Shown: positions 1,571-23,440 of the stretch, one piece after another
How the letters are laid out: each line of letters starts with the position of its first letter
Numbering within the stretch: the stretch's first letter is position 1
Assembly (NCBI RefSeq): GCF_030766725.1
Contig: NZ_JARQWR010000007.1
Coordinates: forward strand, 124,001-188,000
Direction of reading: 5' to 3'
Source of the DNA: Flavobacterium aerium
GTDB taxonomy: Bacteria; Bacteroidota; Bacteroidia; Flavobacteriales; Flavobacteriaceae
Length of the DNA: 64,000 bases
Translations under genes and position numbers: made by a program
Notes under the pieces: model-generated
The model's database searches: none
Seen by the model: the letters and a program-made list of their open reading frames with translations, nothing else
What the model was told of the DNA's origin: nothing

Positions 1571-2647
1571 TTAAAAAAAATAAGCAATCAAAGCAAATAC
1601 AATAAAGATAAAAACTACAAGTAGGACAATTTTTGTTGTGCTATAAGGTCTATCTCCAATTAATTTACCATTTCGTCCATTTACATAGAAATGATATCGT
1701 TTATTATTATACAAATAAGAACTTGTATATATAGGAACTAGAATATGCTTAAAGGTAATATCACTATACTGTGAGGTCACTTCATGAATTCTTTGCCTAT
1801 CTCCTCCAATTTGATATCCAATTTTAATTCGGATTCTCTCTCCCATGATGGATTTTGCATTCTTAAATCCTTGCTCCAGATTAATCATATACTTCTCCGT
1901 GATGAATCCGCTTAAGTATTCATTACTGATAGAGATTAGTTTTTCTTTATCCCATGGTTCCAATTGATATAAGGTTGCTCCACTTATATTACCTGATGCA
2001 GGAACCATAATATCATCAAAATAGGAATCTAATGTTCCACTAACACTACTCCATCGTGTTCGGGTTTCTTCACGTTTATTTTCACCACTACCTACCGTTA
2101 CGGTATAGTCTACTCCGCGCTCTCCTGAATAATCAGAAACAGACTGCGCATCATACGTCCAATACGGAATATACACACCTTGTAACCCAATAGGTGATAA
2201 AGCTGCTTTCGATAAATTATTGGGTGCAAACCATAAATCACCAACCCATTTTGATAATATTTTATATACTTCCTTATCCCCTATAGTAAAAGGCAGTAAA
2301 GCTGCTGGCCTAATGAGTCGTTCTTCATGAATATCGGATTCAATTAAGGGTGAACTGCAATTGGGGCAAAATAATGATTTTATATTTCCTTGAACACAGG
2401 AAGATGCACCACAATTTTTACATTCAATTACTTTCTCCACTGCTATATCTTCCTTTCCAAGTGACTCCATATAGCTTTTAAAATCCAACTCCTCTATCAG
2501 AATACTGTCCGAAGGTTTTATTTTATTTACTCCACCACAATAATTACAAATTAAAGTATCGGTCCCTGGTTTGTATTTTAAAGCTGCACCACAGTTTGTA
2601 CAAGCATAACTTTCAGATATTCTCTCTTTTTCTTCTGTCAAATCCAT
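1571..2647 (-). CDS. Double zinc-ribbon, membrane-anchored protein (YdjG-like)
   Basis: 358 residues. Two zinc ribbons open the protein: C16/C19...C34/C37 and C76/C79...C94/C97. A mixed alpha/beta region with many aromatic residues follows, and one C-terminal transmembrane helix (about 337-357) forms a tail anchor. The layout resembles Bacillus YdjG, part of an operon with an SPFH protein and a PspA homologue; such proteins are often mislabelled primosomal protein N'. It is the second gene of an operon, 13 nt after the SPFH gene, which supports the YdjG/YdjI comparison. No PspA gene is seen in the window. Role inferred: membrane-surface or envelope-stress partner; no enzymatic motif is visible. 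Confidence 0.7.
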   Translation of the reverse strand: MDLTEEKERISESYACTNCGAALKYKPGTDTLICNYCGGVNKIKPSDSILIEELDFKSYMESLGKEDIAVEKVIECKNCGASSCVQGNIKSLFCPNCSSPLIESDIHEERLIRPAALLPFTIGDKEVYKILSKWVGDLWFAPNNLSKAALSPIGLQGVYIPYWTYDAQSVSDYSGERGVDYTVTVGSGENKREETRTRWSSVSGTLDSYFDDIMVPASGNISGATLYQLEPWDKEKLISISNEYLSGFITEKYMINLEQGFKNAKSIMGERIRIKIGYQIGGDRQRIHEVTSQYSDITFKHILVPIYTSSYLYNNKRYHFYVNGRNGKLIGDRPYSTTKIVLLVVFIFIVFALIAYFF

Positions 2648-2660
2648 TATGAATTTCTTA

Positions 2661-3767
2661 TTATACTGTAGGTAATGGTGGTGGTGTATTTGTCCATAGT
2701 ATCTGTAAATCTGTTTGATTTTCTGCTTTATCCCATCCGGACAAACCTTGTTTCCATACTAAATTCTCTCTACTGAACTCTCCTTTTTTCACCAGTTCTT
2801 CTAACTGTGTCTGATTGAATGGACCTGCTTGTTGGCCATTAATCGCTACAAAATAACTTATTCCCGAAGGAATCGGCGGCGGCGTACTTTGCGGAGCACT
2901 ATTATTTGATTGGCCTTGCGTATAGGCTTGTGTCATTTGATTCGCCATTGCAAAACCTGCTCCCATCCCTACTCCTGCTCCTGCTACACCTGAAGGATTT
3001 GCTGCAGCTACTTCTATCGCTTTTGCCGCTTTAAACTGCGTTAACTTATTCAAATCAATTACGTTCAATCGGCTTAATTCGAAGATTTCTTTCTTGATTT
3101 CCTCTGGCATTGAAACATTTTCAATCAAGAACTTGGTCACATCAATTCCATATACCGTAAAATCATCTTGCATATAACCAAAAATTGCCGTTGACAATTC
3201 ATTCAGATTGGCTGCGTAAGTCTCAACAGGTAAATTTGCTTCGCCTATTGCATCTGAAAAACGCGTAACGATAATACTCTTTAACTGTGCATCAATATCG
3301 TCTGTTGTAAAAGTTCCATTCGTTCCTACAATTTCTGTAATGAACTTACCAGCATCTGTTATTCTGAAAGTATAGGATCCAAATGCTCGAATCTCCAACA
3401 TTCCAAATCTTCCATCATTAACAATGATTGGACTTTTTGTTCCCCATTTCTGATCAATAAAGTTTTTCGTGTTTACAAAATAAACTTCTGCTTTAAAGGG
3501 GCTATTAAATCCATATTTCCATCCTTTTAATGTTGTCAGAATTGGTAAATTCTGAGTATTTAAAGTGTAAGTACCGGGATTAAAAATATCTGCTATTTTC
3601 CCTTCATTAATAAAAACGGCCTGTTGCCCTTCTCTTACAATTAATTTTGCTTCATTCTTGATCTCATTTTGATAGCGATCAAAACGATGAATAATGGTAT
3701 TGTTGCTATTATCAAGAAACTCAATAATATCAATTAATTCATTCCTAAGTTTATCAAATATTCCCAT
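2661..3767 (-). CDS. SPFH/Band-7 domain protein with C-terminal GYF_2 domain (YdjI-like)
   Basis: 368 residues. An SPFH/virion-core-like domain covers about 30-250 (LIVREGQQAVFINEGKIADI, then a GTYTLNTQNLPILTTLKGWK stretch). A Gly/Ala/Gln-rich linker (about 258-300) leads to a GYF_2 domain at about 303-355 (YFVAINGQQAGPFNQTQLEE), a fold that usually binds proline-rich peptides. The protein itself carries Pro-rich runs before the GYF domain and at its C-terminus. It resembles Bacillus YdjI and is first in a two-gene operon with the zinc-ribbon membrane protein. The promoter must lie in the interval shared with the divergent RNA/TerD locus. No catalytic residues; likely a membrane scaffold. Confidence 0.75.
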   Translation of the reverse strand: MGIFDKLRNELIDIIEFLDNSNNTIIHRFDRYQNEIKNEAKLIVREGQQAVFINEGKIADIFNPGTYTLNTQNLPILTTLKGWKYGFNSPFKAEVYFVNTKNFIDQKWGTKSPIIVNDGRFGMLEIRAFGSYTFRITDAGKFITEIVGTNGTFTTDDIDAQLKSIIVTRFSDAIGEANLPVETYAANLNELSTAIFGYMQDDFTVYGIDVTKFLIENVSMPEEIKKEIFELSRLNVIDLNKLTQFKAAKAIEVAAANPSGVAGAGVGMGAGFAMANQMTQAYTQGQSNNSAPQSTPPPIPSGISYFVAINGQQAGPFNQTQLEELVKKGEFSRENLVWKQGLSGWDKAENQTDLQILWTNTPPPLPTV

Positions 3768-4122
3768 CTTATCTTTTATATTTCTAATTAAAACTAGTTT
3801 CTTTTTTTATTGATTATTAAAGATACACAACTTTATGAATCTGTAATAAATATTTTATGCATGAAGTACACAAACAAATGATTTTTACATTTATTTAATA
3901 TATCATTATGAGAATAATCCTCTTCTAATCTATCTTTAGTACTTCTAATAATATTATATCTTTTAATTTTTTTAGGTCTAAAAGTTGCTCTTTTAAAAAC
4001 GCAGAATAGATTATTCAATTATTTCATTAAAAAAACAAAACCTAACAACATCAAAAACAGAACATTAAAATTTATTTTTGAATTATTTTAATCTACGCAA
4101 AACGATTGCGCACTTGCTTATT

Positions 4123-4130
4123 TATATTTG
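4123..4130 (+). promoter_or_regulatory. Candidate -7 element of the tRNA-like RNA / TerD locus
   Basis: TATATTTG matches the Bacteroidota TAnnTTTG element. Transcription would begin near 4136, before the first hairpin, giving a leader of about 400 nt to the ORF at 4543. No good -33 TTTG lies at normal spacing (the nearest TTG, 4106-4108, is 14 nt upstream), so the promoter may need an activator. Confidence 0.5.
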
Positions 4131-4165
4131 CAATGTAATTAAGCAACAAAAGTTCATTGATAAAA

Positions 4166-4230
4166 AAGCAGGTCAAATATAAGTTACTTCCAACACTCCT
4201 AAATGTATAAACTTATGTGATTACCTGCTT
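4166..4230 (+). ncRNA. Bulged hairpin, copy 1 of a repeated RNA motif
   Basis: AAGCAGGT (4166-4173) pairs perfectly with ACCTGCTT (4223-4230). C4174 pairs with G4219, flanked by an AA bulge on the 5' side and an ATT bulge on the 3' side. A second helix of 9 pairs (4177-4185 with 4210-4218, core ATAAGTT/AACTTAT) closes a loop starting ACTTCC. The pattern GGT-C-AA-helix...helix'-G-ATT-ACC recurs in copies 3 and 4 with different but still complementary helices, so it is most likely a functional RNA element. Confidence 0.75.
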
Positions 4231-4235
4231 TATAT

Positions 4236-4350
4236 GAAGCAGTAGCTCAGCGGTAGAGCAGGTAGTTTTGAAATTATCAAAAGATGGTCAATCAAAACTT
4301 ACTCCCACACTTTTAATGTCCGGGTCATCGGTTCGAATCCGATCTGTTTC
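4236..4350 (+). ncRNA. tRNA-like RNA with the anticodon arm replaced by a hairpin insertion
   Basis: Acceptor strand GAAGCAG (4236-4242) pairs over 7 bp (one G-T) with CTGTTTC (4344-4350). TA follows at positions 8-9, then a D arm GCTC-AGCGGTA-GAGC (4245-4259). The T arm is ATCGG-TTCGAAT-CCGAT (4327-4343). Between them, instead of a normal anticodon arm, lie 66 nt (4261-4326) that cannot form a normal anticodon stem. They hold copy 2 of the repeated hairpin, permuted: AGTTTTGA (4264-4271) pairs with TCAAAACT (4292-4299). Not a decoding tRNA. The plan, a tRNA-like end joined to a bulged hairpin, recalls bacterial Y RNAs such as YrlA. It lies in the leader of the RING/TerD-like gene at 4543. 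Confidence 0.82.
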
Positions 4351-4357
4351 TCAAAAA

Positions 4358-4413
4358 ATGGTCAAAAAAGACTTACTTCAAGATATTCCAAAAACTAGTC
4401 TTTTGATTACCAT
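4358..4413 (+). ncRNA. Bulged hairpin, copy 3 of the repeated RNA motif
   Basis: ATGGT (4358-4362) pairs with ACCAT (4409-4413). C4363-G4405 is flanked by AA (4364-4365) and ATT (4406-4408). AAAAGACT (4366-4373) pairs with AGTCTTTT (4397-4404). The topology is identical to copy 1 with a different helix sequence. The loop begins TACTTC, as in the other copies. It lies just after the tRNA-like RNA. Confidence 0.75.
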
Positions 4414-4423
4414 ATAAATTAAG

Positions 4424-4442
4424 CCTTTACATAATGTAAGGG
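4424..4442 (+). other. Small hairpin between motif copies 3 and 4
   Basis: CCTTTAC (4424-4430) pairs with GTAAGGG (4436-4442) around a 5-nt loop. No T-run follows, so it does not look like an intrinsic terminator. It may only be a structural spacer. Confidence 0.35.
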
Positions 4443-4469
4443 TTAGTAATAAAATAAATATAGTAATAA

Positions 4470-4522
4470 GGTCAATTGTTTCTTACTTCAATTTTTTAAG
4501 GTAAAACAGAAACAAGATTATC
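4470..4522 (+). ncRNA. Bulged hairpin, copy 4 of the repeated RNA motif
   Basis: GGT (4470-4472) pairs with ATC (4520-4522). C4473-G4516 is flanked by AA and ATT (4517-4519). TTGTTTC (4476-4482) pairs with GAAACAA (4509-4515). Same plan as copies 1 and 3. It ends 20 nt before the ATG at 4543, so it could affect ribosome access to the RING/TerD-like gene. Confidence 0.7.
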
Positions 4523-4542
4523 TAATTATAAAGATTAAAAAA

Positions 4543-6780
4543 ATGAAAAATTTAATTCAGGTTTCAGTCCGTCAAAGTGCAATCTTTATTCCTAAGGAAC
4601 AAATTGTTGCTCCAGGAAAAAAAATAACACGAACAACAGCCATGTTAGTCGCTAATCTAGCTAAAATAGGATTTTCTTTATCAGAAGAATTACTACACGC
4701 TATGAATACCGTTTCTCCTGCTTATAAGTTGGAGATTTATGAAACATTGTCTAAAATATTAGGGACAGATAAAAACTGGACTCCTTTAGTAAAAGGATGG
4801 AATACTCCAACAGGTGAAACTGAATTGGACCATTTTGAAACTTTTCTGGCTACAATCTTTAATTCTAAAGATGGTACTCCACTAGAATGTGGCCATATCA
4901 TTCCATACGGAACTTTTCCAATAGAGCGTTATAACGGTTGCCCTTTTTGCGGAACACCATTCCAATTTGGAAAAATTGAAAAATATGGTCAAGGAAGTAA
5001 AACAAAACTATTAAATCTATGGACTGAAGACGCTATACAGTCTTATTTCGCAGATTTACTACTGTCTAAAACAGCCTTGGATGCTACTCAAATTGATAGT
5101 TTGAAAATACTAGTTGATGTTTTTCCATTGCCAAAAGTAACTGTTGGAATGAAAGAAACATTGATGATTATAGTTGATGCTTTGGTAGAAAAAGGAGCGG
5201 GTGAAAAAGCCGAAATCTACTTTACTTCCCCTACAGATATACTGCGTTATTTATGGTATAAAAAGACGGGAGTTTTACAAATCATGGAGCCTAAAACCAT
5301 TATTAAACAAGCCGCAAAAAATAGTGGACATTTCCAATCAAACTTAAATCAAAGTGCTCAAGCTACTTTGTCTAAAAAATTAGAATTAAAACTAAAATAC
5401 AACCGTCAGGAATGTAAAATGGTCGCTGTTTGGATCAATAATCTAGAATTGGATATTGAAAAAACTTGTGAAATGATGCATCCAAAAAGAGAAATGTGGG
5501 TTCGATTTATCCGTGCCTTACGTTTAGCAGAATACAGCAAAAAAGAAGGATTCGAAAAGTTAAAAGATTTACTAGATGTTTTCTATAATGAAATCTATAC
5601 CGTATGGCAAGGTCGTGTGAACCAGTACCGTTTGAAATCGGATGCTATTAATACATTTGTTCTTTTAAAACAAAGACCTGGTTTATTTGCTCGTTCATTA
5701 TTCTCAACTATGTTATGGTATGGAGCAGAAGAAACTATAAAAGAATTTACAGCAATAATTGATCAAGTTCCAGCCCGTTTAATATTTACATTAAATATGT
5801 ATGCACAAAATTATTTTGATAAGGATAATGATCGAATAGTAAAACCATTAGGTGGAACTATCAAAAGAATTCCTGCAAACAAATTTTTAGGATTGTATAC
5901 GGAGGAGCAATTAAACGAAATGAAAGCTTTGGTTGAAGGTTTATCAATCACTGTCATGAAGAAACGTTTTGCTGCTATTCCAAATGAAAATAAAACTATA
6001 TACATTGATCCGATGTTATTCAATATTCCAGTAGCAATAGGAGATCGAAGTGATACTGTACAAGATTTGCCAGCAGCATTACCGGGAACAAAATTTCAAG
6101 TAGAAGGAGATGCTGTCCGTCTATTTATGCAATGGGGTAAAGATTTACCTGCTCAACATTTGGATATGGATTTAAGTTGTCAAATAGCATATAGTGATGG
6201 GAAACATGAGATTTGTTCTTATTCTCATTTAACAGCGACTGGCGCTCAACATAGCGGAGATATTAGAAGTATTCCTGATAAAATAGGAACCGCTGAATAT
6301 ATTGAATTGGATATTAATGCCTTAAAACAGGCCAAGGCACAATATGTAACCTTTACTTGTAATGCCTTTAGTACGGGAGCCATCAGCCCAAATTTAGTGA
6401 TTGGATGGATGAACAGTAAACATAAAATGAAAATCTCAGAGAAAACAGGTGTTGCTTATGATCCTTCTTGTGTTCAGCATCAGGTGAGAGTAGTTCAAAA
6501 TGCTGCCAAAGGAATTGTCTTTGGTGTATTGGATGTTTGGAATAATGAAATCATCTGGCTTGAAATGGCTTTTGGAGGACAAGTGGTTCAAAATTTGGAT
6601 TTTGAAGCTGTAAAAGGTTTGATTTCAAAATTGAATACTAAATTAAACATTGGAAATCTTTTGCTTTTAAAAGCAGAAGCGCAAAATCTGAAAAGTATTG
6701 AAACAGAAGATGCCGATGAAGTATATTCTATGGAATGGGCTTTAAACAGTGCTGCTGTTACTAAACTTTTAGTAGATTAA
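4543..6780 (+). CDS. RING-like / TerD-like large protein downstream of the tRNA-like RNA
   Basis: 745 residues. A helical N-terminus precedes a treble-clef/RING-like zinc knuckle with C116, H118, C133 and C136 (ECGHIIPYG...GCPFCGTPF). A long helical repeat-like region (about 200-480) includes VLLKQRPGLFARSLFSTMLW. A C-terminal TerD-like beta-sandwich follows from about 510 (VRLFMQWGKDL, LDMDLSCQIAYSDGKHE, AQHSGDI, EYIELDINAL). The build recalls the family NCBI calls MXAN_6230/SCO0854 RING-domain protein; that label is from memory and unconfirmed. No TROVE/Ro60 or von Willebrand A motif was recognised. It follows the RNA hairpin array on the same strand and probably shares its transcript. Role inferred: binds or responds to the tRNA-like RNA. 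Confidence 0.75.
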   Translation: MKNLIQVSVRQSAIFIPKEQIVAPGKKITRTTAMLVANLAKIGFSLSEELLHAMNTVSPAYKLEIYETLSKILGTDKNWTPLVKGWNTPTGETELDHFETFLATIFNSKDGTPLECGHIIPYGTFPIERYNGCPFCGTPFQFGKIEKYGQGSKTKLLNLWTEDAIQSYFADLLLSKTALDATQIDSLKILVDVFPLPKVTVGMKETLMIIVDALVEKGAGEKAEIYFTSPTDILRYLWYKKTGVLQIMEPKTIIKQAAKNSGHFQSNLNQSAQATLSKKLELKLKYNRQECKMVAVWINNLELDIEKTCEMMHPKREMWVRFIRALRLAEYSKKEGFEKLKDLLDVFYNEIYTVWQGRVNQYRLKSDAINTFVLLKQRPGLFARSLFSTMLWYGAEETIKEFTAIIDQVPARLIFTLNMYAQNYFDKDNDRIVKPLGGTIKRIPANKFLGLYTEEQLNEMKALVEGLSITVMKKRFAAIPNENKTIYIDPMLFNIPVAIGDRSDTVQDLPAALPGTKFQVEGDAVRLFMQWGKDLPAQHLDMDLSCQIAYSDGKHEICSYSHLTATGAQHSGDIRSIPDKIGTAEYIELDINALKQAKAQYVTFTCNAFSTGAISPNLVIGWMNSKHKMKISEKTGVAYDPSCVQHQVRVVQNAAKGIVFGVLDVWNNEIIWLEMAFGGQVVQNLDFEAVKGLISKLNTKLNIGNLLLLKAEAQNLKSIETEDADEVYSMEWALNSAAVTKLLVD

Positions 6781-7797: not shown

Positions 7798-8991
7798 ATG
7801 GATAAAACATTGAGTGCTCTAAGAGAAAAACATACTACCATTACTTCTAATTTAGCATTAGGAATAGGGCAAATTATTTTGTGGGGTGGTTCATATTTTT
7901 TGTTATCAGTTCTTTCAGGTTCAATAATGAAAGATACTGGATGGTCGTATCAATCAATCTATGGAGCACTTTCTTTATCATTACTTGTATCTGGATTAAT
8001 AATGCCCAAAATTGGCTATTATATCCAACGCATGGATAAGAACATCCCGCTATTATTTACGGGAGTAGTGATGGCTTGTGGTTTATTTGTCATAGCGGGT
8101 AGTAGGTCATTCTCCATTTTTCTGATTGGTTGGTTCATCATTGGTATTGCAATGGGAATGGGTTTATATGATGCTCTATTTGCTTCATTGGGCAAAAAAC
8201 ATGGTAACAATGCGAGTATTTCAATTGTACAGGTTACTTTGATTTCGAGCTTAGCACCCAGTATCTCTTGGGCATTTCTAACTTTTTTAAACACAGCCTA
8301 TGGATGGCGTTTGACCTGTATATTCTATGCTATTATTCTAATTGTTACCATTTTACCACTTCATTATTGGTTATTTACAGAAAAAAATACGACAAAGCAA
8401 ACCTATCCAGATCAATCTTTGATGATAGATACTACAGATGTAGCCAATGTCTCAAAACCACTCTATAACTGGATTTTGATCAATTTTACTTTGGGTGCGG
8501 TGATTACTACTGGATTGGTGATCCATTTAATCGACATATTAAACGATAAGAATTTGACAAAAACCTCAATAATAACCATCGCAGCTATACTTGGACCGAG
8601 TCAGGCAGCAGTTAGAGTTATAGAACTTTTACTTCCTAAAAGGTCCGTTATATTGTCTGCAATTATTTCGTCTAGTGCACTTTTTATTGGTACATTATTC
8701 CTAATGCTTGATTCCAGAATTGCGGGTTTAGGAGTCTTGCTTTTTGGAATGGGAAATGGCATGAGGTCGATATTAAGAGGAACTTTACCATTATCTATTT
8801 TTGGAAGTAAAAATTATAGCTTGATTATTGGTAAACTTGCCCGTCTTCCATTAATAGCACAAGCGGTAACACCCGTTATCGGAGGCATATTCATTCAACA
8901 ATTTGGTATTAATGGGTTTCTTCTATTCTTGCTGTTATTATCAATACTCTATATCCTATCTGTTTTAATGGTAAAATCATATTTAAGATAA
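7798..8991 (+). CDS. MFS transporter, 12 transmembrane segments
   Basis: About 397 residues, hydrophobic throughout, with roughly 12 membrane helices and a central cytoplasmic loop near residues 200-220. I chose ATG 7798 (MDKTLSALREKH); the longer frame begins with TTG at 7786 and adds only four residues. It is divergent from, and probably regulated by, the LysR gene at 6831-7715. It has the general look of the cyanate-permease/CynX-like branch of MFS, but the substrate cannot be read from sequence. The GNAT gene follows 17 nt downstream, likely in the same transcript. Confidence 0.85.
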   Translation: MDKTLSALREKHTTITSNLALGIGQIILWGGSYFLLSVLSGSIMKDTGWSYQSIYGALSLSLLVSGLIMPKIGYYIQRMDKNIPLLFTGVVMACGLFVIAGSRSFSIFLIGWFIIGIAMGMGLYDALFASLGKKHGNNASISIVQVTLISSLAPSISWAFLTFLNTAYGWRLTCIFYAIILIVTILPLHYWLFTEKNTTKQTYPDQSLMIDTTDVANVSKPLYNWILINFTLGAVITTGLVIHLIDILNDKNLTKTSIITIAAILGPSQAAVRVIELLLPKRSVILSAIISSSALFIGTLFLMLDSRIAGLGVLLFGMGNGMRSILRGTLPLSIFGSKNYSLIIGKLARLPLIAQAVTPVIGGIFIQQFGINGFLLFLLLLSILYILSVLMVKSYLR

Positions 8992-9008
8992 AATAAAAAC
9001 AAAAAGTT

Positions 9009-9527
9009 ATGAACTACAAATTTGAAAAGGCCGAATCTGGTCAAATTAATGAAATCTGGGAAATTTTTATTCATGCAATCGAGCGTAGAAAACAAGATGG
9101 AAGTGAACAATGGCAAGATGGATATCCTAACCCTACGGTTCTAAAAAGAGATATTGAAAATGGTTATGGGTATGTGATATCCAATGAAGAAGATATTATA
9201 GGTTATTGTGCACTAATGATTAATGATGAGCCAGAATATGCTAACTTAAAAGGACAATGGCTAACCGATGGAGATTTTGTTGTTTTTCATAGAGTGGCAG
9301 TATCCGAAAAATATTTGAAACAAGGATTTTCAAAGATTATGCTACAATACATTGACGCTTTTGCTATGGAAAACCAAATTTCAAGCGTAAAAGCTGATAC
9401 CAATTTTGATAATGCTGCAATGTTGGCTCTTTTTGAAAAAACAGGTTATCAATACTGTGGAAAGGTTACGTTTCGAGGTTGTCCTCGTAAAGCTTTCGAA
9501 AAAGTTTTAAAACAACATGATATTTAG
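9009..9527 (+). CDS. GNAT-family N-acetyltransferase
   Basis: 172 residues with GNAT architecture: HRVAVSEKYLKQGFSKIMLQ is the acetyl-CoA pyrophosphate-binding loop region, and VKADTNFDNAAMLALFEKTG is the conserved C-terminal strand and helix. It starts 17 nt after the MFS gene, so the two are probably co-transcribed under LysR control. A terminator follows. The substrate is unknown. Confidence 0.85.
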   Translation: MNYKFEKAESGQINEIWEIFIHAIERRKQDGSEQWQDGYPNPTVLKRDIENGYGYVISNEEDIIGYCALMINDEPEYANLKGQWLTDGDFVVFHRVAVSEKYLKQGFSKIMLQYIDAFAMENQISSVKADTNFDNAAMLALFEKTGYQYCGKVTFRGCPRKAFEKVLKQHDI

Positions 9528-9585
9528 TCAAATAATCTACTCTTCCTTTTTACACAATATATAAAAGAGATAAAGACATCATTAC

Positions 9586-9612
9586 ATGGGATATTTATTA
9601 TCCCATTTTTTA
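9586..9612 (+). terminator. Terminator after the GNAT gene
   Basis: ATGGGATA (9586-9593) / TATCCCAT (9599-9606), loop TTTAT, followed by a T-rich run. Confidence 0.75.
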
Positions 9613-9655
9613 TTCTATATATCAAAGCGAATGATTGGGTATTTTTACTTAAAAA

Positions 9656-11866
9656 CTACAATACTAATAATCCTGATTCTCGTAGTGTATTCACTGGTTT
9701 ACTGTACCAAAATAATTCAAAATCTTCAATTCCGGCAGTTTCTGCATTTGCTTTTACTTCTTGAAAGGTATGAATCTTAGCATTTGATACTGAAATAAGG
9801 GCCAAAATGGATAATAACCATTCTGCTTCTTCTTTATTGGTCTGAATACTAAAGCTTTCTTTTTTATCATGGAATGTTAATGTTGCCATTTCCCATTGAT
9901 TCCCTTTCTTGCTTTTCGTAAAATAGTTTACTGTTGGTTTATTCCCTAGCCAAACAATTTTTGCTGATGATTTAATCAGTAATTCATCTTCCTCACTGAT
10001 TGCATTAAATATATAATCATTTGGAATTTTTGTACGTGGTATTTTAAATTCAAACCAGTCTTGTAATGGGTAATCAAAACAGATTCCATGCATGAAATTG
10101 AATAATGATTTCTTTAATCCGAAACTAAACTGATCGTGATCGGTACCGGTATTGTCAATATGGACAATATCATTATTTGCAAAGGTTCCGATAGCTTCAG
10201 TCTCCTTTAAAACACCAAATTTTTCCGGATACATTCCTACTGGACTATGCGCGGTCATTGCAAACTGATGCCAAAAACCTGATTGTAAGATTCCAACTTC
10301 AAACATTTGACGAATCATTTCCAGGGAATCAATCGTTTCCTGTGCCGTTTGTGTAGGGAAACCATACATCAAATAGGCATGTACCATTACGCCTGCTTCT
10401 GTAAAATTTCGTGTTACGCGCGCTACTTGTGCTACGGTAACTCCTTTCTGAATCAGTTCTAGTAATCGGTCGGAGGCTACTTCCAATCCTCCAGAAATGG
10501 CAATACAACCCGATGCTTTAAGCAACAAACATAAGTCTCTTGTAAAGCTTTTTTCAAAACGAATATTCGTCCACCACGTAACACTAAGTTTTCTTCTCAG
10601 AATTTCTAATGCCAAAGCTCGCATTAAAGCCGGTGGTGCAGCTTCATCTACAAAGTGGAATCCATTCTGCCCTGTTTGTTCGATTAGTTCTTCCATACGA
10701 TCGCAGAGCAATTTTGCTGCTACAGGTTCGTATAATTTTATATAATCTAATGAGATATCACAGAACGTACATTTCCCCCAATAACATCCATGTGCCATCG
10801 TCAATTTATTCCATCGCCCATCGCTCCACATGCGGTGCATTGGATTTACAATTTCAATAACTGAAATATATTGATCCAATAACAAATCATTATAATCTGG
10901 TGTTCCTACTTCTGATTGTTTATAATCTTTACAGCTATTGTTATTGATATAGGTTACTTTTCCATCGACTAAAGTGAACGTTCTTTTCAGTTCGTCAATC
11001 GTTTTTCTACCTTCTATATAATCAATTAAGTTTTCAATCGGTGCTTCTCCATCATCTAATGGAATGAAATCAAAAAATTCAAAAACTCTTGCATCAGAAA
11101 GTGAGCGTAATTCGGTATTAGCAAATCCTCCTCCCATTGCAATTTTCACTTCTGGGTAGTGTTTTTTGATCCATTGTCCACAACGAAATGAGGCATATAA
11201 ATTACCCGGAAAAGGAACTGATAAGGCAACCATTTTAGGTTGAACCATTGACATTTTATATTCTAATATTCCAATTAGAATTTGATCGATATAGGTATAT
11301 TCTTGTTGTAAAGCTGTATACAGTTCGTCAAAGCTATTGGCTGATCGACCCAAACGTTCTGCATACCTGCTAAATCCAAAATTATCGTCAATACATTCTA
11401 CAATTAAATCGGAAATGTCTTCCAAGTATAGAGTAGCCAAATGTTTTGCTTTATCCTGAGTTCCCATTGTTCCAAAAGCCCAATCCAATTCTTCTAAAGT
11501 AGAAAATCGGGATGCTTCTGGTAAAAAATCTTCTTGGCAAATTAAATGGGAAAGTGTTGGATTCTTTCCTTGCAGAAATAATATTACTGAATCAATCGTA
11601 TGGATATAGTCTTCTTGTAATGCAAGAATACGTTGTGCATTATCACTAAGCTTTAAGTCTGTTTCTTCAACTTTTTGAGTGATTGTATCAAATAAATTCT
11701 GTAATCCTCCTTTTGAAAATAATTCCAATATTACTTCTATCCCTAAATCGGATTGATAGGAAGTAATATCTTTTGTGTTTAGAAATCCTTTTATATAGGC
11801 TGTGGCCGGATAGGGCGTATTCAGCTGTGTAAAAGGTGGAGTAATTAAGAAAACTGTTGAGCTCAA
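9656..11866 (-). CDS. Radical SAM protein with N-terminal B12-binding-type domain
   Basis: 736 residues. The N-terminus (VFLITPPFTQLNTPYPATAY) has the look of B12-binding radical SAM proteins and leads to a Rossmann-like region ending VKIAMGGGFANTEL (about 240-253). The radical SAM cluster motif is C361, C366, C369 (GCYWGKCTFC), spaced CX4CX2C rather than the common CX3CX2C. A TIM-barrel core with GGLEVASDRLLELIQKGV and a winged-helix-like C-terminus follow. The only start compatible with the domain is TTG at 11866; no upstream in-frame ATG exists before a stop. It is monocistronic. The substrate is unknown; peptide or cofactor modification is possible. Confidence 0.8.
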   Translation of the reverse strand: MSSTVFLITPPFTQLNTPYPATAYIKGFLNTKDITSYQSDLGIEVILELFSKGGLQNLFDTITQKVEETDLKLSDNAQRILALQEDYIHTIDSVILFLQGKNPTLSHLICQEDFLPEASRFSTLEELDWAFGTMGTQDKAKHLATLYLEDISDLIVECIDDNFGFSRYAERLGRSANSFDELYTALQQEYTYIDQILIGILEYKMSMVQPKMVALSVPFPGNLYASFRCGQWIKKHYPEVKIAMGGGFANTELRSLSDARVFEFFDFIPLDDGEAPIENLIDYIEGRKTIDELKRTFTLVDGKVTYINNNSCKDYKQSEVGTPDYNDLLLDQYISVIEIVNPMHRMWSDGRWNKLTMAHGCYWGKCTFCDISLDYIKLYEPVAAKLLCDRMEELIEQTGQNGFHFVDEAAPPALMRALALEILRRKLSVTWWTNIRFEKSFTRDLCLLLKASGCIAISGGLEVASDRLLELIQKGVTVAQVARVTRNFTEAGVMVHAYLMYGFPTQTAQETIDSLEMIRQMFEVGILQSGFWHQFAMTAHSPVGMYPEKFGVLKETEAIGTFANNDIVHIDNTGTDHDQFSFGLKKSLFNFMHGICFDYPLQDWFEFKIPRTKIPNDYIFNAISEEDELLIKSSAKIVWLGNKPTVNYFTKSKKGNQWEMATLTFHDKKESFSIQTNKEEAEWLLSILALISVSNAKIHTFQEVKANAETAGIEDFELFWYSKPVNTLRESGLLVL

Positions 11867-21517: not shown

Positions 21518-22942
21518 CTAATCTTCTCTACTTCCATCATCTGCCATTCGAACAATTTTGGGTGTGAATTTTGCAATTACATCTATCAATTCTTTCTGCG
21601 AATTCATCACCATATTAATATCCTTATAGGCCATTGGTGCTTCATCGCGTCCCGCTCCAATTAATGTCACTCCATGTTCTTTCAGTACTTCTCTCATTTG
21701 AACTTTTGTAATACTTTTGACCGCTTGTGTTCTACTCATTTGTCTTCCCGCCCCATGTGACGCTGAGTTAATTGCCTGTACTTCTCCTTTTCCTCTAACC
21801 AAGAATCCTGGTGCTGTCATAGATCCTGGAATAATCCCCATTACATCTTTTCCAGCAGGGGTTGCTCCTTTTCGATGTACAATTACTTCTTCACCATTCC
21901 AGATCTCTTTCCAGGCAAAATTATGATGATTTTCTATTCTGGCTAAAACAACTCCTCCTAAAGCTTTTTCCATCTTATCATGAATAACCTGATGGCATGC
22001 TGAAGCATAATCACCTGCTAAATTCATAGCGAACCAATATTCCTGCCCTTCTTGGCTATTCATATCTAAATACGCCAAGTTTGAAGCTTCTTTTGGGAGT
22101 TTTGTTTTTTCCTTTGCTAATCGAGTATAATATCCCGCAATGGTTGCTCCCATTCCTCGAGATCCTGAGTGCGTTAATAAGGCTACATATTTCCCTTTTT
22201 CAATGTTTAAAATTTCATCTTTTTGTTCAAATTCAATGATTCCAAATTCAACAAAATGATTTCCTCCTCCCGACGTACCTAATTGTGACCATGCTTTATC
22301 TTGTAGGTTTTTAATAAATGGTGTCAAGTTAAATTCATTTCGATCCAAAACATCGTGTGTTGACTTATATTGCCCATGAAAACCATGGCCTGCTCCAAAC
22401 CTTGTATGAGCAATCAGTTCTCTTTTAAACTTTACGCTGTTTTCCTCCAAATAGGCTTCTGGAATATCATAAATAGACAAAGCCATTCTACATCCAATAT
22501 CAACACCTACACCATACGGAATAATTGCATTTTTGGTTGCTAACACACCGCCAATTGGCAATCCATATCCTTGATGTGCATCTGGCATTAAAGCTCCTCC
22601 AATAGTAACAGGAAGCTTCATTGCAATATTCATTTGTCTTTTTGCTCCTTCATCAATATTTTCTTCACCATATACCGCATACTCTAATACTGATGTTTTC
22701 AATACTATCGTTTCATCAATTGGAGCATTTGATTCTTCAATTAGTTTTGTAGCTAAATCTTCCAATACAACATCATCTAGAAAATTCTCTGGATTATCTT
22801 TTACTTTTTTAAATAAAGCAATCACTTCTTCTCTCTCTGATATTTCACAGTTTTTATTCGCCAATATTAAGGCGAATCCTAAAATCTCATTGGCTTTATA
22901 TCCTACAGATAATAAATCTGTTCCTGTAATTGTTGTTTTCAT
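21518..22942 (-). CDS. rtcB: RNA-splicing ligase RtcB
   Basis: 474 residues. GTP- and Mn-dependent ligase joining RNA 3'-phosphate (or 2',3'-cyclic phosphate) ends to 5'-OH ends. Metal-site and guanylylation motifs are intact: PDAHQGYGLPIGGVLA, YGVGVDIGCRMALSI, QLGTSGGGNHFVEFG, LTHSGSRGMG, and NSASHGAGRQMSR, whose His is guanylylated in studied RtcBs. Length and motifs fit the active RtcB1 type, not an archease-linked form; no archease or rtcA is in the window. The leader contains a tRNA-like RNA ending 27 nt before the ATG, and the gene is divergent from a WYL regulator. Its usual partner prfH is only a relic at 12.5-13 kb. Confidence 0.95.
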   Translation of the reverse strand: MKTTITGTDLLSVGYKANEILGFALILANKNCEISEREEVIALFKKVKDNPENFLDDVVLEDLATKLIEESNAPIDETIVLKTSVLEYAVYGEENIDEGAKRQMNIAMKLPVTIGGALMPDAHQGYGLPIGGVLATKNAIIPYGVGVDIGCRMALSIYDIPEAYLEENSVKFKRELIAHTRFGAGHGFHGQYKSTHDVLDRNEFNLTPFIKNLQDKAWSQLGTSGGGNHFVEFGIIEFEQKDEILNIEKGKYVALLTHSGSRGMGATIAGYYTRLAKEKTKLPKEASNLAYLDMNSQEGQEYWFAMNLAGDYASACHQVIHDKMEKALGGVVLARIENHHNFAWKEIWNGEEVIVHRKGATPAGKDVMGIIPGSMTAPGFLVRGKGEVQAINSASHGAGRQMSRTQAVKSITKVQMREVLKEHGVTLIGAGRDEAPMAYKDINMVMNSQKELIDVIAKFTPKIVRMADDGSRED

Positions 22943-23343: not shown

Positions 23344-23351
23344 TATATTTG
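23344..23351 (+). promoter_or_regulatory. -7 element of the WYL-gene leader
   Basis: TATATTTG, an exact match to TAnnTTTG. The predicted start near 23356 coincides with the 5' end of the structured leader. Confidence 0.6.
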
Positions 23352-23355
23352 GTCT

Positions 23356-23440
23356 GCGTGAAGGATGGAAACGGCATCCTTTTTCTCTTCATCCAAGAGA
23401 AAAAGATATAGTGAACAGCCTGACCTGAAGGGTCACGCCC
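23356..23440 (+). ncRNA. Structured leader RNA upstream of the WYL gene (Flavo-1-like)
   Basis: Within 85 nt: AAGGATG (23361-23367) / CATCCTT (23375-23381) with loop GAAACGG; TTTTTCTCTT (23380-23389) / AAGAGAAAAA (23395-23404) around CATCC; GACC/GGTC (23422-23434) with a TGAAG loop; and the end pairing GCGTGA (23356-23361) with TCACGC (23433-23438). The layout and the terminal GGGTCACGCCCC recall, from memory, the Flavo-1 RNA of flavobacteria; unconfirmed. It ends 16 nt before the ATG of the WYL gene, so it could be a cis regulator or a separate small RNA. Confidence 0.55.

Follow-up and report, generated by a model that had tools for sequence, protein, structure and literature searches.

Repeated hairpin RNAs and tRNA mimics linked to a RING/TerD-like protein family in Bacteroidota, other phyla and phages

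The leader of a RING/TerD-like gene of Flavobacterium aerium consists of copies of a single RNA hairpin motif together with a tRNA-like RNA, and these RNAs very probably make up a selected family that is cognate to the RING/helical/TerD protein encoded downstream. The locus lies in the window, i.e. the whole 64,000-nucleotide stretch of genomic DNA that was analysed. The RNAs form defined structures with covarying helices, they are strictly linked to the gene, and many relatives of the gene are found in neighbourhoods of tRNA and RNA repair genes. We lean towards the reading that RNA and protein form a particle which works like that of Ro60 and Y RNA, although its protein is unrelated and its RNA motif differs, and which would act in the response to cut or otherwise damaged tRNAs.

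The leader array and its tRNA-like RNA

The leader occupies positions 4136-4542, and within 4167-4526 three hairpins of one motif and one tRNA-like RNA are packed together. In 5' to 3' order the motif comprises GG-U-C-AA, a 7-bp helix (P2) that is free in sequence, UUACUUC, an end loop, a single A, the second strand of the helix (P2'), a spare base and AUUAYC. GGU pairs with AYC and AA with UU in the basal helix P1, from which the C is bulged; an asymmetric loop separates P1 from P2, and UUACUUC faces the single A across an internal loop. Hairpin module 1 (4167..4229, plus strand) combines a GGU/ACC P1 and its bulged C with the P2 pair AUAUAAG/CUUAUGU, the UUACUUC..A internal loop and a short end loop. 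Module 3 (4356..4415, plus strand) has AAAAGAC/GUCUUUU as P2, and module 4 (4466..4526, plus strand), with UUGUUUC/GAAACAA, stops 16 nt short of the start codon. R1, a covariance model built from 56 hairpins that include modules 1 and 3 and exclude module 4, scores the three at 61.3, 58.5 and 61.3 bits respectively (E 9.4e-13 for module 4, the one outside the training set). In a search of the window all three were found at E of about 1e-12 with the next match at 16.8 bits, and in the complete 4.0-Mb genome at E up to 0.001 R1 has three matches, all in this leader. An Rfam search of positions 3900-4700 at E up to 5 returned tRNA as the sole match and no family for the hairpins. The 416-nt leader folds with a z-score of -5.82 against shuffled sequences, none of 100 shuffles being as low.

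The tRNA-like RNA (4236..4351, plus strand) has a 7-bp acceptor stem, a D arm, a T arm and a Lys(UUU)-type anticodon arm that is split by an insert; it matches the Rfam tRNA model at 44.1 bits (cut-off 29). ARAGORN, used to look for canonical tRNA genes, called no tRNA here. The insert (4263..4306, plus strand) interrupts the 5' strand of the anticodon stem and, judging from a reading of the sequence and from relatives in other loci, is a further copy of the hairpin motif in circularly permuted order. Both motif strands are swapped to give P2'-AAUUAUC, loop, GGUCAA-P2-UUACUCC, with P2' at 4265-4271, AUUAUC at 4273-4278, a 7-nt loop at 4279-4285, GGUCAA at 4286-4291, P2 at 4292-4298 and UUACUCC at 4299-4305. 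The rest of the anticodon arm follows at 4307..4321 (plus strand) as ACA-CUUUUAA-UGUCC, comprising a loop with U33 and the anticodon UUU, and pairs with the GG at 4261-4262. When the insert is removed, the stem GG+ACA / UGUCC closes the loop CUUUUAA to give an arm of the Lys(UUU) type.

The original prediction had described four motif copies with complementary helices, placed around a tRNA-like RNA and ahead of a RING/TerD-like gene. All four copies were found on reading the sequence, with helices as described, and the view of a selected repeated motif before this gene was upheld by the R1 scores, the covariation described below and the fold. The arrangement around the tRNA-like RNA holds for the three hairpins; copy 2 lies inside the anticodon arm of the tRNA and is permuted. 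This location of copy 2, the presence of the motif in other phyla and phages, and the RNA repair genes that adjoin many loci go beyond that prediction.

Further loci were collected by a protein scan of an 84,980-species collection, in which 364 relatives were confirmed and the best 80 of these kept, a choice that favours near relatives. The 80 loci were found by two peptide patterns, and their record names are those of Bacteroidota except for one that reads only 'bacterium'. With the window added, a hairpin copy is present in 81 of 81 loci and a permuted copy in 63, most of these loci being close Flavobacterium relatives so that the counts do not represent independent events. A strict pattern assigned 199 copies as hairpins and 71 as permuted and left 80 unassigned; one of the latter, in L002, was read by eye and has AUUACAC instead of AUUAYC. 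The motif is degenerate in L004 (52% identity), and upstream of a Prevotella relative (L123) one UUACUUC was seen and a tRNA-like match was not found.

Covariation between the copies, which had been claimed from the four in the window, is strong in P2. In the alignment of 56 hairpins, hand-picked for diversity from 94 distinct ones that had been gathered by at least 5 of 7 P2 pairs, 89.0% of cells are paired compared to 64.8% after shuffling and 33-45% when slid by 1-3 columns, and there are 213 double-change cells against 76 in the shuffled set. In a wider set, whose partners were picked by pairing (at least 5 of 7 P2 pairs), 98 distinct hairpin pairs are 90% paired compared to 52% after partner shuffling, and 31 distinct permuted pairs are 86.6% paired compared to 73.4% (maximum 78.8%), the margin being smaller because the permuted helices vary less. 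For 26 tRNA-like RNAs the acceptor, D, P2 and T helices are 97.0% paired against 88.9% after shuffling, with 62 double-change cells against 15; these RNAs were picked from 65 listed ones plus L122 of Hymenobacter, partly by their acceptor and T-stem pairing, which flatters the 97.0%.

The split anticodon arm is retained as well. Across the insert a complete 5-bp anticodon stem can be formed in 70 of 82 distinct tRNA-like RNAs (81 loci), many of them Flavobacterium orthologues, compared to a mean of 30.5 and a maximum of 37 with shuffled 3' strands. U33 is present in 66 of the 82, the commonest loops being CUUUUAA (32) and CUUCUAA (13), and in 63 of the 70 complete split stems the distal piece begins 1-2 nt past UUACUYC. 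The 5' boundary of the insert is variable among loci. The kept anticodon arm fits a mimic that needs to resemble an entire tRNA, and just as well an intron that is spliced out.

Several loci depart from the usual form, in which about 90-100 nt separate the start of the acceptor from the T stem. This distance is 135-212 nt in L049, L053, L056, L058, L063, L064, L068-L070, L073-L075 and L080, and in L003 and L075 an extra piece with its own T arm is located in the gap between two motif copies. In many of the loci L005-L062 a motif hairpin at about -217 relative to the gene carries nothing but a T-arm hairpin as its end loop, e.g. UUCGGUUCGAAUCCGAA in L006, the rest of the tRNA not being seen there.

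Linkage to the gene and occurrence in other phyla and phages

The RNA and the gene occur together within the genus. R1 matches 25 of 199 Flavobacterium genomes, and a protein search matched 27, of which 25 carry full-length matches of over 1,000 bits and are the same 25 genomes that carry the RNA. The remaining two protein matches, in genomes G601 and G742, are weak and partial, and with both counted as carriers without RNA the co-occurrence has a Fisher p of about 9e-30. A comparison of the two result tables places the RNA ahead of the gene, at a distance of no more than about 0.8 kb, in 25 of 25 genomes; Infernal filters were stricter in any search that spanned more than 40 genomes. Homologous, covarying hairpins upstream of homologous genes, the check that had been suggested along with the prediction, are thus present in the 80 Bacteroidota loci and in the 25 of 199 genomes of the genus that encode the full-length protein.

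Distant relatives of the protein are encoded on plasmids and by phages, and UUCCUUCU or UUACUUC recurs near their genes on the same strand. Two copies follow the gene in Variovorax, in Niallia and in Vibrio, and four follow it in the Rhodococcus phage Weasels2; four Streptomyces relatives have the motif about 260-300 nt ahead of the gene, and a contig of a human-gut phage has four copies ahead of it. In 10 of 12 annotated non-Bacteroidota loci the strict motif lies within 500 nt of the gene, with 22 occurrences in 12 kb of near sequence vs 9 in 88 kb of far sequence; two Deinococcus loci have the variant AUCCUUC only. Thirteen such loci were fetched, and L137 (Streptomyces BHT-5-2), where the gene borders are unannotated, was omitted from the count; in this locus TTCCTTCT occurs 280 nt beyond the matched region.

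An IMG/VR scan with three distant relatives confirmed 86 stretches, from which 80 loci were kept, on contigs that measure up to 455 kb and thus include some of jumbo size. A viral scan based on alignment A2 of the Bacteroidota proteins yielded no confirmed relative, and one with the Weasels2 protein alone returned only the same phage. In the viral loci, a partly redundant set, TTMCTTC occurs 284 times in the 140,363 nt that lie up to 900 nt from the gene, compared to 100 times in the 618,923 nt farther out. Eleven viral gene ends were misjudged, ten loci meeting an in-frame stop at once and L203 an early one, so that what counts as downstream in these lies inside the gene. The phage hairpins follow the consensus GG-CUAU-P2(8)-UUCCUUCU..A-P2'-N-AUUU-CC, and 112 distinct ones were obtained in 52 loci from 200 sites with GG in place. 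A partner search with a 6-nt P2 gave nothing because the phage P2 is mostly 8 nt long. With partners picked by a flank pattern read beforehand from the viral loci and not by pairing, 44 distinct phage pairs are 86.4% paired compared to 48.7% after shuffling (maximum 57.1%).

The phage hairpins add a second layout of motif and tRNA. Of the 112 phage hairpins, 13 (9 loci) have a T arm within the end loop, and several hairpins, when read by eye, enclose a whole tRNA in permuted order with the 3' half first. The acceptor stem of these mimics is capped by GAAA in L138 (7207) and by UUCG in L178 (7362 and 7747), while the UUCG cap is less plain in L158 (4779) and L215 (4882), again as read by eye; Weasels2 has one permuted tRNA mimic, which is closed by a short AU-rich turn. 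A permutation that places the RNA ends in the putative protein-binding stem is found in L138 and L178 and not in the window copy, which keeps the tRNA order. Whether the motif lies within the tRNA or the permuted tRNA within the motif, the UUMCUUC loop is on the anticodon side, which suggests that one three-dimensional unit may have been kept across both layouts.

This distribution bears on the possibility that the array is an autoregulatory cis leader, in which the protein would bind hairpins in its own mRNA to repress or sense its own expression and the tRNA-like piece would mimic tRNA as in autoregulated tRNA-binding proteins. The array is indeed directly upstream in the Bacteroidota loci, and in the window its last hairpin stops at the short distance from the start codon given above. 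However, copies lie downstream of the gene in Vibrio, Variovorax, Niallia, Weasels2 and many viral loci, and the mimics with capped acceptors look like self-contained RNAs, so that an autoregulatory leader is improbable.

Gene neighbourhood and proposed role

RNA repair genes adjoin many of the loci. Among the best 80 of the 364 relatives, RtcB is encoded downstream within 2.5 kb on the same strand in 34 and a T4-type RNA ligase within the same distance in 17, four of which also have Pnkp in range; an RNase-T-like exonuclease is present alone in four, the tested repair genes are absent within 2.5 kb in 22, and the contig ends too soon in two. L005 had fallen into the ligase class because of a neighbour that was not identified; its ligase lies at 2.7 kb and is excluded, which makes the ligase count 17 and not 18. 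Pfam confirmed two exonucleases and a single RtcB, ligase and Pnkp each, and the neighbours that were not scanned with Pfam were assigned by tblastn. The association is shared outside Flavobacterium, with RtcB in Emticicia aquatilis, a Cytophaga and a Chitinophaga, the ligase in Emticicia sp. C21 and the exonuclease in Taibaiella. A Segatella relative neighbours a 3'-5' exonuclease. For the Variovorax relative, rtcR is found in divergent orientation at a distance of 1.3 kb, with three small genes in the interval; for the Vibrio relatives, an RNA ligase is encoded on the opposite strand at about 3 kb; and in Weasels2 tRNAs are nearby and RtcB is 3 kb on. tRNA or tmRNA genes occur in the flanks of 59 of the 80 viral loci, 439 of them on the strand of the gene and none on the opposite strand, and in the flanks of 15 of the 80 Bacteroidota loci (best 80 of 364). 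The window gene has no adjoining repair gene, LysR being next; the only RtcB match of the genome (271 bits) is located in the window at 21551-22624 on the minus strand, 14.8 kb from the RING/TerD gene.

Other genes in these regions were also recorded. The window contains a Flavo-1 RNA (Rfam RF01705, 64.1 bits) at 23347-23429 on the plus strand, and divergently upstream of the gene, at 1571-3767 on the minus strand, it encodes one protein that matches zinc ribbons weakly and an SPFH/Band 7 protein that includes a GYF_2 domain; the viral locus L193 likewise has a Band 7 protein (2899-4782) ahead of the gene. In the Bacteroidota locus L053 (1-6000), as well as in L056, L058, L069 and L075, 6-22 tRNA genes of mixed isotype are found upstream of the gene, and tmRNA genes lie near it in the phage contigs L128 (808-1105), L142, L179, L187, L202 and L205. 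tRNAs with the anticodon CTA in L178, L182, L184 and L192 hint at TAG recoding. Beside the relative of the gene, L053 encodes a vWA protein with DUF5682 (8256-11689, minus strand) and L127 a vWA-like protein with a MoxR ATPase (8381-11762, minus strand), and on the viral contig L141 a single protein near the gene combines a reverse transcriptase with a SLOG-type domain (2314-3744, plus strand).

The presence of RtcB in 34 of the 80 loci also bears on a second alternative, namely that the insert is a tRNA intron which is excised and the halves joined, for instance by RtcB, to yield a working tRNA with a Lys or other anticodon. The completeness of the split stem (70 of 82 against 30.5), the retention of U33 (66 of 82) and the near-constant spacing after UUACUYC (63 of 70) speak for an intron. 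Yet 199 of the 270 assigned copies are hairpins outside any tRNA arm, some of which hold a T arm in their loop, and the permuted phage forms, their acceptor closed by GAAA or UUCG, have no 3' end to charge. The variable 5' boundary of the insert and the many Flavobacterium orthologues among the 82 RNAs weigh further against an intron, which we consider slightly less probable even than the autoregulatory leader.

Returning to the favoured reading of a Ro60-like particle, its parts may be held with differing confidence. Direct binding of the RNA by the RING/helical/TerD protein is likely in view of the strict linkage and shared spread of the two, and a role of the system in tRNA damage is somewhat favoured. 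It is proposed that the array shares the transcript of the gene or is expressed alongside it and that the protein would bind each motif via the conserved two-loop stem, i.e. GGUCAA / NAUUAYC, P2 and UUACUUC / A. Some modules would be plain hairpins, and one would present a tRNA mimic with acceptor, D, T and anticodon arms, so that the particle displays the mimic. The mimic could then divert tRNA-targeting nucleases as a decoy or register them as a sensor; alternatively, it could dock RtcB, a T4-type ligase with Pnkp or an exoribonuclease onto damaged tRNA.

Since the mimics keep an anticodon loop, a bait or sensor role is plausible, and it is put forward tentatively as a possibility. A cut by an anticodon nuclease, whether of host defence, a toxin or a rival, would be absorbed or sensed by the particle and would trigger repair by the neighbouring RtcB or T4-type ligase and Pnkp, or removal by the exonuclease. 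In its broadest form, which is equally speculative, the system would be an independently evolved second class of tRNA-mimic RNP, present in several phyla and in large phages, that offers a bait tRNA whose anticodon loop can be cut. If the bait reading were true, phages would use the particle to counter tRNA-cutting defences and hosts to counter toxins.

The encoded protein and comparison with known systems

The gene (4543..6780, plus strand) encodes a 745-aa protein with a RING-like Cys/His stretch near residues 116-137, a helical region at about 160-480 and a TerD fold at about 510-690. It matches NCBIfam NF041916, the MXAN_6230/SCO0854 RING family, at 127.7 bits, below the cut-off of 600, and is a relative and not a member by the rule of NCBI; Prok-RING_4 is matched at 17.1 bits, also below its cut-off. 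Pfam RING matches one Streptomyces and one Variovorax member above the cut-off and Vibrio below it, and no such match was found in the five phage members scanned; the RING therefore cannot be needed for the link with the RNA. The phage members correspond to phrog_33734, which is labelled as of unknown function, and PADLOC returned no match for five proteins.

An AlphaFold2 model based on 67 sequences reached a pLDDT of 85.9 and a pTM of 0.84 and replaced an earlier one from 4 sequences (pLDDT 57), which was discarded. A structure search with the predicted model retrieved 3ibz (TerD) with a Z score of 14.6 (rmsd 3.0, 152 residues). Z scores of 12.0-14.6 were obtained for six entries, of which three bear TerD in their title, and the next entry was at 4.9. 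For the helical region at about 160-480 a clear structural match was not found and no Ro60 was among the matches listed, a similar fold in this predicted region remaining conceivable. Profile matches to the PDB were confined to ABC-transporter and E3-ligase entries and were taken for chance.

The original prediction had seen no obvious Ro60 in the protein, and this stands: there are no matches to a TROVE protein in the genome, and Pfam TROVE is not matched in the window protein or nine relatives, while the TROVE control scored 112 bits. TROVE homology was also rejected by hhalign, in which 67 relatives compared with eight TROVE proteins from Bacteroidota gave a probability of 0.5%. A Ro60/Y RNA system proper that has diverged and whose protein derives from TROVE would account for the similar RNA plan and neighbourhood, but with the genome lacking TROVE, this hhalign result and a C-terminal domain that is TerD it is highly improbable. 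Because this defining protein test failed, the system is not filed as Ro60/Y RNA.

In the open-access literature, the protein family and the RNA motif both appear to be undescribed in such a role. No description of the present RNA-protein system and no paper on SCO0854/MXAN_6230 was found there, an absence that carries little weight as it covers open-access papers only, and RtcB occurs together with TerD there only in a review of jumbo phages. To our knowledge, tRNA-mimicking RNAs in RNA repair operons are otherwise known only with Ro60-type proteins. The system described here would put a non-Ro60 protein family with its own RNA motif in the place of Ro60, across phyla and in phage tRNA clusters. 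It would thereby place one uncharacterised protein family, covered by the labels phrog_33734, MXAN_6230/SCO0854 and TerD, in a function-bearing context and supply a testable reason for the clustering of repair ligases and tRNA arrays, with possible relevance to the presence of tRNAs in large phages. Further members can be sought with the RNA motif, which is a sharp marker.

Ro60 is a ring of HEAT repeats that, with Y RNA, tethers PNPase, and in the bacterial Y RNA YrlA the acceptor stem is capped. The likeness to bacterial Y RNAs that had been suggested is apt, as a tRNA-like part is joined to a stem of the protein-binding type and phage forms are permuted. The domain organisation of YrlA is described in parts of PMC8394870, and a section of PMC11472068 aligns a bacterial Y RNA to tRNA via circular permutation. 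In passages of PMC7790460 the authors propose that the tRNA-like domain of YrlA might competitively inhibit an anticodon nuclease in an RtcR-controlled operon, YrlA itself being uncut. As far as these passages go, the present system shares with YrlA and Rsr/Ro60 (rsr-yrlBA-rtcBA operons) a putative protein-binding stem attached to a tRNA-like module of acceptor, D and T arms, circular permutation, here in the phage forms, and RNA repair neighbours including rtcR or RtcB, though these are not adjacent in the window. It differs in that the protein is not TROVE, the stem has a conserved UUMCUUC/A loop, the anticodon loop is kept, there are several copies per locus, and in the Bacteroidota form the arms keep their tRNA order while the stem interrupts the anticodon arm.

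With the MXAN_6230/SCO0854 family (NF041916) the overall protein family is shared at a distance and the four Streptomyces members have the motif upstream, whereas the window protein is below the cut-off of the family and the five phage members are without a Pfam RING. T4 Pnkp and Rnl1 have a role in tRNA repair. Phage tRNA arrays with this T4-type repair resemble those loci in which tRNAs, an RNA ligase and Pnkp lie near the gene, but a dedicated protein and tRNA mimics are present here. Archaea and red algae have intron-bearing or permuted tRNA genes, and these too are interrupted or permuted with a structured junction at the anticodon arm; unlike them, the present family includes capped acceptor stems and hairpins that are free of any tRNA.
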